A stretch of 64,000 nt of DNA. Origin: Lachnospiraceae bacterium. Lineage in GTDB: Bacteria; Bacillota; Clostridia; Lachnospirales; Lachnospiraceae. Made by a program: the position numbers and the translations under genes. The notes under the pieces are model-generated. The model was not told the origin of the DNA and made no database searches. It saw only the letters and a list, made by a program, of their open reading frames with translations. Location of the stretch: positions 62,001-126,000 of the forward strand of contig JAGPFR010000001.1 in NCBI GenBank assembly GCA_018056425.1, written 5' to 3'. Of the stretch, positions 1-4,004 are shown in pieces (position 1 is the stretch's first letter; each line of letters starts with the position of its first letter).

Positions 1-1895
1 AATCACAGTCCGAAGCAGGTATGATCGACGAGGATGCAAATGCTTTTGAGCAGTATGCATACTTTGTACAGATCAAAAATGAGCAGGTTTATACAACCAG
101 GATCATGGAATCGATGGATACTCTCACCGAACAGCTCGAAGCGCATGGCGTAGAGGGACAGAGAGTAGTCAGCACTTCTTCCGGACTTCTTACCGAGATC
201 TTTGTCGGAGTGGTTCTTCCCGTATTGGTACTTTGGCTTCTTGCTTCCTTCCTTATGATGAAGATGGGCGGAGGCGGCGGGCCATTAAATGTTGGAAAGA
301 GCAACGCCAAGGTTTATGTTCAGAAAGAGACCGGTGTTACATTCAAAGATGTTGCCGGTGAAGATGAAGCAAAGGAATCGCTTGTTGAAGTCGTAGACTT
401 CCTCCATAATCCCGGAAAGTATTCGGGAATCGGTGCAAGACTTCCCAAGGGCGCGCTTTTGGTAGGCCCTCCCGGAACAGGTAAGACCCTTCTTGCCAAG
501 GCGGTTGCGGGTGAGGCACATGTACCTTTCTTCTCACTGACCGGATCTGATTTCATTGAGCTTTACGTCGGTGTCGGTGCTTCCAGAGTAAGGGATCTTT
601 TCAAGGAAGCCAATAAGAATGCACCCTGTATTATTTTCATCGACGAGATAGATGCGATAGGAAGAAGCCGTGACTCCAAGTACGGCGGAGGAAACGAGGA
701 AAGAGAACAGACTCTGAATCAGCTCCTTTCCGAGATGGACGGATTCGATTCTTCAAAGGGTATTTTGATTCTCGGAGCAACCAACCGTCCCGAGATCCTG
801 GATAAAGCGCTCCTTCGTCCCGGACGTTTCGACAGAAGGATCATCGTAGACAAGCCTGACCTTAAGGGACGTGTCGAGATCCTCAAAGTTCACGCCAAGG
901 ACGTTAAGATGGATGAGAGCGTCGACCTTGATGCGATCGCACTCGCAACGAGCGGAGCGGTAGGTTCCGATCTTGCAAACATGATAAATGAGGCTGCGAT
1001 CAACGCGGTCAAGGAAGGCAGGGAATATGTCTGCCAGAAAGACCTCTTCAATGCCGTTGAGCAGGTACTCGTAGGTAAGGAAAAGAAAGACCGCATCATG
1101 AGTGCGGAGGAGAGAAAGATCGTCTCCTATCACGAAGTCGGACATGCACTCATCACCGCACTTCAGAAAAATTCCGAGCCGGTACAGAAGATCACCATCG
1201 TGCCCAGGACCATGGGTGCTCTGGGATATGTAATGCAGGTTCCCGAAGAGGAGAAGTACTTAAACTCCAAGGAAGAACTTGAGAATATGATCGTATCACT
1301 CCTCGGAGGAAGAGCCGCTGAGGAAGTTGTGTTCGGAGATGTAACGACCGGTGCTGCCAACGACATCGAAAAGGCTACATCGATCGCCAAGAATATGATC
1401 ACCCGTTTCGGCATGAGTGACAGATTCGGACTTGCAGGATTTGCAACCGTCGAGAGCCAGTATCTTGAAGGCCGTACCGCAATGAACTGCTCCGATCAGA
1501 CTGCCGCTGCAATTGACGAAGAGATCGTAAAGATGCTCAAGAAAGCATATGAGCAGGCTAAGGATCTCCTCTCCGATAACAGAGAACTCATGGACAAGCT
1601 CGCCGGATATCTCATCGAAAAAGAGACCATCACCGGTAAGGAGTTCATGAAGATCTTCAGGGCAGAAAAGGGAATTCCCGAACCCGAAGAGGAAGAAAAG
1701 GATGTGACCGGTTCCGAAGAAAAGTCTTCCGGTGAAGCATCCGTCAAGGAGACCGTGGAGGAGAAATCATCAGAGGATAAATCTTCGGATGATGTATCGC
1801 CCGAAACCTCTGAAGAAGAAACTGGAAAAGAGAACGAAAATCCGGATGTTCCCCGTGGTGATACAGGTATTTTTTCAAATCACACGATCATGTAA
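1..1895 (+). CDS. ftsH: ATP-dependent zinc metalloprotease FtsH (5' end outside window)
   Basis: Membrane-bound AAA+ protease that unfolds and degrades membrane and regulatory proteins. The reading frame is already open at base 3, and the first in-frame ATG (base 21) lies inside the extracytoplasmic segment. The first membrane helix and true start are therefore upstream of the window. Visible in order: end of the external loop, second membrane helix (about 190-260), glycine-rich linker, Walker A GPPGTGKT (about 465-488), Walker B IIFIDEID, the second region of homology ending RPGRFDR, and the zinc site HEVGH (about 1131). The last roughly 70 residues form an acidic Glu/Ser tail. The family match is certain; only the N-terminus is missing. 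Confidence 0.97.
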
Positions 1896-1896
1896 T

Positions 1897-3360
1897 ATGC
1901 GAAAGTTTTTAAGCGTAAAAAAGCACCGTGTTAACTACAAGGGCAGAGTCTTTACTCTGCCTCTTGTGATATTTATGGTGATGTCTTTTTCGCTTAAAAG
2001 TATTGCTTCCGAGCTTCCCGAAGACATGTCAGAAGCTACGGAAATACAGACAAATGAGATCATAAACTGGCCGAAAGGTCCGGAAACTTCAGGCAGATCG
2101 GTCATACTCATGGAAAATTCCACCGGGGCGATCCTGTATGCCAAGAACATCCATGAAAGATGTTATCCCGCGGCAATGACTGCGATAGTTACAAGTATGC
2201 TGGCTGCGGAAATGTGCGATCTTGACGATCAGGTTGAGTTTTCAACCCAGGCGGTAAGGGACGTTCCTTCCGGAGTCGTAAATATAGCGATCGATCCCGG
2301 AGAGTCACTGAGTGTGGGCGAGTGCCTTCAGGCCATTTTGATAAGGGGCGCCGCGGAGTGCGGATTTGCCATAGCGGAGCATTGCGGCGGCGGATCGAGG
2401 GATGCATTTGTAGCCTTGATGAATTCCAGGGCGGCATCACTCGGATGTACCGAGACCAATTTCACGAATCCCGTAGGACTTCATTCCGAAGACCATTACA
2501 CAACAGCTTATGATATGGCTCTGATCGGAAGGGACTTTTTCGATAATGAGTTGCTTTGCAAATATTCGCTTCAGAAAACCCTGCACCTTTATCCTTCGGA
2601 AGGTCAGAAGGATGAGATAATAGAGCATAACGCATCCAAGATGACTGTCGGCGGCTCTTATGAGTACGAGTATCTGATAGGAGCAAGAACGGGATATACG
2701 GATGAAGCCGGGTACTGTCTCATAGCCGGGGCAGAGAAGGACGGAGTAAGACTTATCGCAGTCATCATGGATGACGGGAGCGATGAGAGATACAAGGACG
2801 CGATCAATCTCTTTGAATACGGCTTTTCGAATTTTACTCTTGTGAGTGCTTCGGAAAACGAGAACTCATATGATGTCGGATCCAGTGTTGCCTCATACGG
2901 AACAACCGATATCATGGGAGATTCGAGCCCTATGTTTTCACTGGACAAAAACGACCGCGTTTTGCTGCCGCTTACCGTGGAATTTGCAGATCTCGAAAGT
3001 TCCATCACATATGACGGGGTTACTGCAAATGAGGCCGCGAGGATCGTTTATTCGTATCAGGGAGCCTATCTCGGGAAATGCTCCATACTCTTCGGTGAAC
3101 CGTCGGATGCATATGATTTCGGCATAAAACCTGAAGAAGAAATACCGGATGAAGAAGATACCGGCAAGACTTTTGTTTTCATAAACATCGCCATGGTTGC
3201 GGCAATAAGTGCCGTGATCGCAGCGGGAATACTCCTGCTTATGGCTTTATTTAAATGGTATAAAAGATACAGAAAGGTACATCCCAACTGGAGAAGACAG
3301 TATCGTAAAGAAAGACACAGGTCTGCTTTTTCCAGGTGGAAGAATAAGAAGATCAAATGA
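1897..3360 (+). CDS. D-Ala-D-Ala carboxypeptidase-like protein (S11 family) lacking catalytic motifs
   Basis: 487 residues with the fold signature of DacA/PBP5-type carboxypeptidases: an N-terminal hydrophobic export segment, an S11 domain, and a C-terminal membrane helix followed by a basic tail. I use ATG 1897, one base after the ftsH stop; an in-frame extension to 1732 would lie wholly inside ftsH. All three active-site motifs are changed. SxxK reads AAMTAI, with Ala93 and Ala96 in place of Ser and Lys. SxN reads Gly151-Ala-Ala. KTG reads Arg264-Thr-Gly. The surrounding residues are well kept (CYPAAMTAIVT, GARTGYTDEAGYCLIAG), so the alignment is not in doubt. It should not cleave or acylate peptidoglycan peptides. 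A binding, scaffold or regulatory role is my inference. The next gene, trmB, overlaps its stop by 4 bases. Confidence 0.9.
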   Translation: MRKFLSVKKHRVNYKGRVFTLPLVIFMVMSFSLKSIASELPEDMSEATEIQTNEIINWPKGPETSGRSVILMENSTGAILYAKNIHERCYPAAMTAIVTSMLAAEMCDLDDQVEFSTQAVRDVPSGVVNIAIDPGESLSVGECLQAILIRGAAECGFAIAEHCGGGSRDAFVALMNSRAASLGCTETNFTNPVGLHSEDHYTTAYDMALIGRDFFDNELLCKYSLQKTLHLYPSEGQKDEIIEHNASKMTVGGSYEYEYLIGARTGYTDEAGYCLIAGAEKDGVRLIAVIMDDGSDERYKDAINLFEYGFSNFTLVSASENENSYDVGSSVASYGTTDIMGDSSPMFSLDKNDRVLLPLTVEFADLESSITYDGVTANEAARIVYSYQGAYLGKCSILFGEPSDAYDFGIKPEEEIPDEEDTGKTFVFINIAMVAAISAVIAAGILLLMALFKWYKRYRKVHPNWRRQYRKERHRSAFSRWKNKKIK

Positions 3361-4004
3361 GATTGAAGAATGTTCCCGGATGCAGGGAGAGAATTGCAGA
3401 AAGCGAGTATGTTGTTTCCGAGGATAAACTCAAAGAGTGCAAGGGCCATTGGCGTGAAGTATTCGGCAATGACAATGAGATCCATATAGAGATCGGAATG
3501 GGAAAGGGCCGATTTATCTATGAGATGGCCGAGAGAAATCCCGAGATCAACTATATCGGAATAGAGAAGTACTCCGCCGTTCTTCTGAGGGCGGTTCAGA
3601 AGATGGAGGAAGAACCCAGGGAAAATCTGATCTTTATAAGGATGGACGCCGAGATGATAACCGAGGTTTTCGGCGAGGAAGAGGTCGGCAGAATATACCT
3701 GAATTTCTCGGATCCCTGGCCCAAAGACAGACATGCAAAAAGAAGACTTCCGTCTCGCGAATTTCTGGCAAGATATGATAAGATATTAAAGAAAGATGGA
3801 AGGATCGAGTTCAAGACGGATAACAGGGTTTTATTTGACTGGGCACTCGAAGAGCTTCCGGAATCAGCATGGAAAGCGGATCTTGTAACATTTGATCTTC
3901 ATTCACAGGCAGAACTGATGACGGATAATGTCATGACAGAGTACGAAGAGAGGTTTTCTCTTCAGGGAAATCCTATTTGCAAATATATATTAACCAGGAA
4001 ATGA
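3357..4004 (+). CDS. trmB: tRNA (guanine-N7-)-methyltransferase TrmB
   Basis: S-adenosylmethionine-dependent enzyme that makes m7G46 in tRNA. The 215 residues are normal for the family. The SAM-binding loop EIGMGKGRFIYEMA appears near residue 47, and the signature DPWPKDRHAKRRL near residue 120, followed by FKTDN. The ATG overlaps the stop of the preceding gene (ATGA), which indicates translational coupling. No changed key residues were seen. Confidence 0.95.
   Translation: MRLKNVPGCRERIAESEYVVSEDKLKECKGHWREVFGNDNEIHIEIGMGKGRFIYEMAERNPEINYIGIEKYSAVLLRAVQKMEEEPRENLIFIRMDAEMITEVFGEEEVGRIYLNFSDPWPKDRHAKRRLPSREFLARYDKILKKDGRIEFKTDNRVLFDWALEELPESAWKADLVTFDLHSQAELMTDNVMTEYEERFSLQGNPICKYILTRK

Follow-up and report, generated by a model that had tools for sequence, protein, structure and literature searches.

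Directly downstream of ftsH, in a 64,000-nucleotide stretch of a Lachnospiraceae genome (contig JAGPFR010000001.1, here called the window), lies a gene whose product aligns with the DD-carboxypeptidases of peptidase family S11 but has lost all three catalytic motifs. The question raised by this locus is whether the gene is decaying or whether its protein has been kept for something other than catalysis. We found it to be a real, old and conserved pseudoenzyme rather than a decaying gene.

Organisation of the gene and its product

The gene starts one base after the end of ftsH, and its stop codon overlaps the start of trmB (ATGA). The frame of 487 codons is open, as the initial annotation of the window had described it. 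The features referred to in the text are the following:

1..1895, + strand: ftsH, co-directional neighbour whose start lies upstream of the window
1897..3360, + strand: pseudo-DD-carboxypeptidase gene (S11 homologue of 487 aa, motifs lost), open frame
1897..2010, + strand: N-terminal export segment of residues 1-38 with a hydrophobic core at about 19-34 (its extent and cleavage assessed by eye)
2077..2775, + strand: Peptidase_S11 (penicillin-binding) domain, residues 61-293 (Pfam match, pLDDT and fold)
2173..2184, + strand: former SxxK motif, now A93-M-T-A96 (alignments)
2263..2280, + strand: loop of residues 123-128, T-P-R-x-S-N in live proteins and here V-P-S-G-V-V (alignment)
2347..2355, + strand: former SxN motif, now G151-A152-A153 (alignments)
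2473..2487, + strand: former NGLPD loop, residues 193-197, now V-G-L-H-S (alignment)
2686..2694, + strand: former KTG motif, now R264-T265-G266, KGG in two of the 16 related genomes that share the loss (alignments)
2914..3096, + strand: small C-terminal beta domain, residues about 340-400 (model and alignment)
3187..3279, + strand: C-terminal membrane helix, residues 431-461 (model and alignment)
3280..3357, + strand: basic tail with HPNWR motif, presumably cytoplasmic (sequence and alignment)
3357..4004, + strand: trmB, whose start overlaps the S11 stop

The match to PF00768 (Peptidase_S11) is significant (E 2.1e-48) and runs across most of the domain model (residues 61-293; model positions 7-237 of 239). 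The closest solved relative by sequence is DacB of B. subtilis (3mfd, E 9.2e-36). The active-site motifs of the family, SxxK, SxN and KTG, were placed with the 3mfd alignment, and the motif columns were read from it and from an alignment of 112 loci, two of which are the window's own gene. Both alignments give the residues that had been named from the window itself, namely Ala93/Ala96, Gly151-Ala-Ala153 and Arg264-Thr-Gly. The export segment and the membrane anchor, which had been described as kept, are present as a hydrophobic N-terminal segment (a helix at residues 20-30 in the AlphaFold2 model), the C-terminal helix 431-461 and the basic tail. The homologue is presumably exported, with a membrane topology that leaves this tail in the cytoplasm. 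To judge from the family, the loop of residues 123-128 would lie beside the old active site. In the former NGLPD loop V193, H196 and S197 are the same in all 16 genomes that share the motif loss (alignment).

Distribution of the motif loss

A protein search gave a homologue in all 31 genomes of the genus that were searched, and the best 80 named loci among the matches listed were added to these. In the 16 genomes nearest to the window (L003-L018), here called the dead clade, SxxK has become A-x-x-A without exception, SxN is G-A-A in 14 and G-A-C in two, and KTG is RTG in 14 and KGG in two (L017, L018); not one of the three motifs is that of an S11 enzyme. The clade comprises Lachnospiraceae species from the rumen and gut, and two of its genomes match records of strains P6A3 and AC2028 that carry no MAG label. 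Sequencing error was rejected because SxxK and SxN are lost concordantly in 16 of 16 genomes. The changed motifs lead us to expect that the protein has neither DD-carboxypeptidase activity nor penicillin binding.

The remaining 15 genomes of the genus all keep S-x-x-K, SAN and KTG (14 of them in the 112-locus alignment, with G005, locus L118, added later). Eleven of the 80 named loci (L033-L043) score like dead-clade genomes already counted and were not counted again, and all three motifs are intact in each of the further 69; within the S11 domain one of these, L044, has the same sequence as the sister genome G024. The motifs are also intact in the best 20 matches from other genera (of 151 other-genus genomes with a match) and in all 20 S11 paralogues that were read (14 from the dead clade and six from sisters). 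In a sample of 297 genomes drawn from other genera of this family (about one per genus), none of the matches listed belongs to the dead clade, and the best of them has 46% identity. An alignment of orthologues had been proposed as a check on the motif losses, and it places them in the whole clade.

Descent and gene order

A quick tree of the S11 domain was built from 74 rows with the motif columns left out and with every third (23) of the 69 intact named loci. The 16 dead proteins form one side of a branch with SH-aLRT 100, their stem measuring 0.46 changes per column, so the motif loss is shared by descent. A second quick tree was built from the neighbouring genes (FtsH, HprK, ROK and TrmB) of 30 of the 31 genomes, G008 being without flanks, and it too separates the same 16 genomes from the rest by a branch with support 100; seven of its intact rows are filled to less than half. 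Which intact sister is nearest differs between the two trees. The loss had a single origin, in one ancestor. As the SxxK and SxN losses are common to both dead subgroups and KTG differs between them, we infer that the simplest order is SxxK and SxN first, with KTG changing later and twice.

The order ftsH-S11-trmB on one strand is found in 15 of the 16 dead-clade genomes, and the one other genome, G022 (L166), has a contig that stops at the S11 gene; named loci were paired with genomes by identical scores. Further downstream in the clade are trx, hprK, a ROK kinase gene and murB (named by homology or by eye), with no Trx match at L033. Of the 15 intact sisters, 12 have a fetched flank long enough to cover ftsH, and in each of these it is found upstream in the same orientation as the S11 gene, directly adjacent in three and 0.6-1.05 kb away in nine. 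The dead-clade gene is therefore most likely the positional orthologue of the ftsH-linked S11 gene of the sisters. Horizontal replacement at the locus is not favoured, since both trees keep the clade together and the adjacency to ftsH is shared.

The position of trmB differs between the two groups. In the dead clade it runs in the same direction as ftsH and the S11 gene, whereas in the nine of 15 intact sisters in which it was seen it is on the opposite strand; the arrangement has changed alongside the catalytic state. In G004, G012 and G020, all intact sisters, a gene other than trmB follows S11.

Selection on the gene

A gene on its way to loss could have all three motifs changed, and a KTG altered in two ways is what would be expected once catalysis is gone. 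Against this, no stop was found within the matched frame in any of the 16 genomes (the G022 copy being cut by the contig end), and the rates of change point the same way. We calculated dN/dS by the Nei-Gojobori method using pairs with dS < 1.6, which left out 98 of the 120 dead pairs as saturated. The 22 unsaturated pairs gave values for the S11 domain of 0.017-0.10, far below 1, although dS exceeds 1 in 15 of them and single values are rough. The intact group gave 0.009-0.19 (eight usable pairs of 105). The initial annotation had asked whether dN/dS is low here, and it is.

Relative amino-acid distances were also used, as they avoid the problem of saturation. When the dead S11 domain is compared with an intact 331-aa S11 paralogue in the same genomes, the median distance ratio is 1.03 for the catalytic part of the paralogue and 0.85 for the whole of it (91 pairs from 14 genomes, the two dead-clade genomes without a paralogue locus being left out). 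Within the dead clade the S11 domain has a median distance ratio of 1.00 to TrmB (120 pairs), and the ratios to the other neighbours are 0.71 for thioredoxin, 0.79 for MurB, 1.14 for ROK, 1.35 for FtsH, 3.18 for HprK and 3.36 for the gene before ftsH. The corresponding medians in the intact genomes are 1.92 for TrmB (36 pairs), 1.0 for ROK, 1.46 for FtsH and 2.43 for HprK. The dead domain is under roughly the same constraint as a working one, and both its dN/dS and its paralogue-like distances reveal purifying selection after the loss. Decay is rejected on these low dN/dS values and on the distances relative to TrmB and the intact paralogue, and we consider it extremely improbable. Relatives with intact motifs, together with relaxed selection here, had been named as the signs of a decaying gene; an intact sister group does exist, and selection on this gene is not relaxed.

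Constraint is not evenly spread along the protein. Where it could be computed in the dead clade, dN/dS was 0.02-0.14 for the C-terminal part and 0.04-0.25 for the anchor and tail. The S11 domain has a lower value than the C-terminal part in 16 of the 18 dead pairs with both computable, and the anchor and tail have a higher one than the C-terminal part in 14 of 16. With the S11 domain lowest and the anchor and tail highest in most pairs, the ex-catalytic domain seems to be where the function resides.

Membrane anchor and FtsH

This order of constraint, with the tail the least constrained part, speaks against a reading in which the S11 fold does no more than provide a stable outer domain, and the C-terminal domain, the helix or the tail carries out the function, for example at FtsH. 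The gene is co-directional with ftsH in the clade, and its helix and HPNWR tail are conserved, as that reading would have it. However, a C-terminal hydrophobic segment is present in 68 of the 69 intact named relatives, most of them with a basic tail (the exception, L104, ends at a contig end), and the sisters share both the adjacency to ftsH and the tail motif. The latter, H-P/R-N-W-R, is found in all 30 sequences of the genus that reach that point (16 dead and 14 intact), and HxNW in one of the 69 further named loci, L044, itself a sister sequence of the genus. Being common to dead and intact proteins, the anchor and tail were in place before catalysis was lost and are not specifically informative about FtsH. 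We therefore regard a spacer or anchor role as unlikely.

Of the interpretation first given to this gene, selection for a non-catalytic role stands, on the clade-wide loss and the low dN/dS. For its suggested bridge to FtsH, or for an FtsH adaptor, we found no specific evidence; the adjacency to ftsH, the helix and the basic tail are common to catalytically intact relatives.

Predicted fold and former active site

The AlphaFold2 model was made from 63 sequences and has a mean pLDDT of 79.7, with 84-97 per block of ten residues in the S11 domain. Its best Foldseek match is 3mfd_B (E 4.9e-27), and 5tr7_B superposes with an rmsd of 2.4 over 261 columns. The predicted structure has the penicillin-binding fold, and the S11 fold is predicted to be intact.

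Within residues 61-320, 15 positions are near-invariant in each group and different between dead and live proteins, including S93A, K96A, S151G, N193V, P196H, D197S, T123V and N128V. Judged from the alignment, most of the changes in the pocket are to small non-polar residues, and the remodelled pocket has fixed residues of its own. The pocket segments were defined from the motif positions after part of the alignment had been seen, and the p-values are modest and only a guide: invariant columns make up 40 of 63 in the pocket versus 96 of 192 in the rest in the dead clade (p 0.04), and 35 of 63 versus 64 of 192 in the intact group (p 0.0015), while columns without a residue common to dead and live proteins number 14 of 63 versus 16 of 192 (p 0.004), an enrichment that becomes weak when the four motif positions are removed (10 of 59 versus 16 of 192, p 0.054). 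Since the intact group shows the conservation of the pocket more strongly, the dead pocket is not specially conserved. The exchange of polar active-site residues for Ala, Gly and Val may do no more than stabilise the fold.

These changes bear on the idea that the remodelled pocket binds stem peptides or another small ligand, sensing or shielding it without cutting. The pocket segments remain conserved after the catalytic loss, Arg264 retains the positive charge of KTG in 14 of 16 genomes, and R150, E154, H200, Y201 and G266-Y267-T268 are kept in all 16. However, the Lys of SxxK, the Ser and Asn of SxN and N193 have given way to small non-polar residues (position 153 is Cys in two of 16), two genomes have KGG, and several of the kept residues, which are equally invariant among the intact proteins, may have a structural role. 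With the polar groups of SxN (Ser and Asn) and SxxK (Lys) gone from the active site, and in two genomes the Thr of KTG as well, the old mode of stem-peptide binding is unlikely to survive unchanged; stem-peptide binding as such is possible. We hold ligand binding to be a doubtful but serious candidate, and as it overlaps the explanation that we prefer, the probabilities given to the two do not sum to one.

A changed enzyme, working with a different set of residues, might be read into the residues near the old site that are new and fixed in the clade (H196, S197, S100). Yet the old positions hold neither a nucleophile nor a base, no shifted SxxK was seen on reading the alignment, and C155, beside the old SxN, also occurs in 13 of the 15 intact sisters. 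Catalysis of this kind is very unlikely.

Other cell-wall genes in the same genomes

One other S11 gene is present in 14 of the 16 dead-clade genomes and none in two (G011 and G030, of completeness 76 and 68), and this single other gene is motif-intact in all 14 that were read. The intact sisters have in total two S11 genes in three genomes, three in two and four in ten of the 15. Compensation by extra S11 genes was thus not seen, the dead clade having fewer than most sisters. In the tree of neighbouring genes the sisters with two (G012, G013, G020) fall together with the clade, so the reduction in S11 number may predate the motif loss. The intact 331-aa paralogue (G000:C56 53234-53938, L142) is by eye a lipoprotein, with L-T-G-C near its N-terminus. 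Its neighbours resemble, again by eye, rodA, mgsA and yggS, and are similar in one intact sister (L156).

An S13 enzyme was rejected, as all 28 matches are fragments confined to the first 69 of the 444 model positions, each on an S11 gene. Replacement of S11 by M15 was also rejected, PF01427 being found in only six of the 16 clade genomes. VanY (PF02557) has no match in G023, G027, G028 and G029 and one in each of the other 12 dead-clade genomes. Peptidase_M15 (PF01427) is present in all four genomes without VanY, and G022 and G030 have both.

Matches to YkuD (L,D-transpeptidase) number two in 15 of the dead-clade genomes and one in the other, and in the 15 intact sisters none in five, one in seven, two in two and three in one. 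The second YkuD gene (G000:C77 4960-5352, L202, with equivalents in L203-L206) adjoins what looks by eye like a MurD-like ligase gene in four of the five dead-clade loci read, L204 being the exception. L,D-transpeptidases use tetrapeptides made by DD-carboxypeptidases, and a link between them and the dead S11 protein is thinkable.

Proposed role

The explanation that we prefer, with moderate confidence, is an old conserved pseudoenzyme that is selected through its ex-catalytic domain and probably binds or regulates a cell-wall partner outside the membrane. Its ancestor would have been an ftsH-linked, membrane-anchored DD-carboxypeptidase of the DacA type, still present in the intact sister species. 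In one ancestor SxxK and SxN would have been lost, with KTG then changing in two ways, and purifying selection would thereafter have maintained the ex-catalytic domain, whose new pocket is mostly non-polar. The resulting non-catalytic module outside the membrane would most likely act by binding and regulating a cell-wall partner, much as dead LytM regulators such as DipM do; candidates include the intact S11 enzyme that remains, an L,D-transpeptidase or a different hydrolase. The homology, motif loss, single origin, conservation and predicted fold were all obtained by computation; the regulatory role is a best guess, made by analogy with the dead LytM proteins.

A more specific version is offered only tentatively, namely that a DacA-type enzyme might have become the founder of a pseudo-PBP lineage devoted to regulating peptidoglycan trimming or 3-3 cross-linking without catalysis. 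The lineage would have arisen in a clade in which 15 of 16 genomes have two YkuD genes as well. If true, the pseudo-PBP regulator would be the penicillin-binding-fold counterpart of the dead LytM regulators.

Comparison with known systems

The protein is like other members of peptidase family S11/PF00768 (DacA, PBP5, DacB 3mfd) in sequence family, fold, export segment and C-terminal anchor, and shares its ftsH-linked place with the intact sister genes; unlike them, it has all three catalytic motifs broken. The anchor of PBP5 is an amphipathic helix, whereas here it is a membrane helix with a basic tail, as in the intact Lachnospiraceae relatives. Among the matches listed in a search of the open literature, no conserved catalytically dead S11 penicillin-binding protein appears in the titles or the beginnings of the abstracts.

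Dead hydrolases of the LytM and amidase types are already known as regulators. CwlM is inactive and, unlike the S11 protein, cytoplasmic and of a different family. This mycobacterial peptidoglycan amidase homologue is reported to control cell-wall synthesis (PMC4946905). In the inactive LytM-domain proteins DipM, EnvC and NlpD a dead hydrolase domain is reported to regulate other hydrolases (PMC10336132, PMC8416486, PMC12440217). The likeness is that a dead peptidoglycan-hydrolase domain has been retained, there as a regulator; the LytM metallopeptidase fold is unrelated, and the LytM regulators have known partners.

The dead clade and its intact sisters form a clean pair for asking about non-catalytic roles of a low-molecular-weight PBP. 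They also carry a warning for annotation, as a match to PF00768 is no proof of a DD-carboxypeptidase. In MEROPS, peptidase homologues without catalytic residues are termed non-peptidase homologues; that term is a label for sequences, whereas here a whole clade was examined for conservation.
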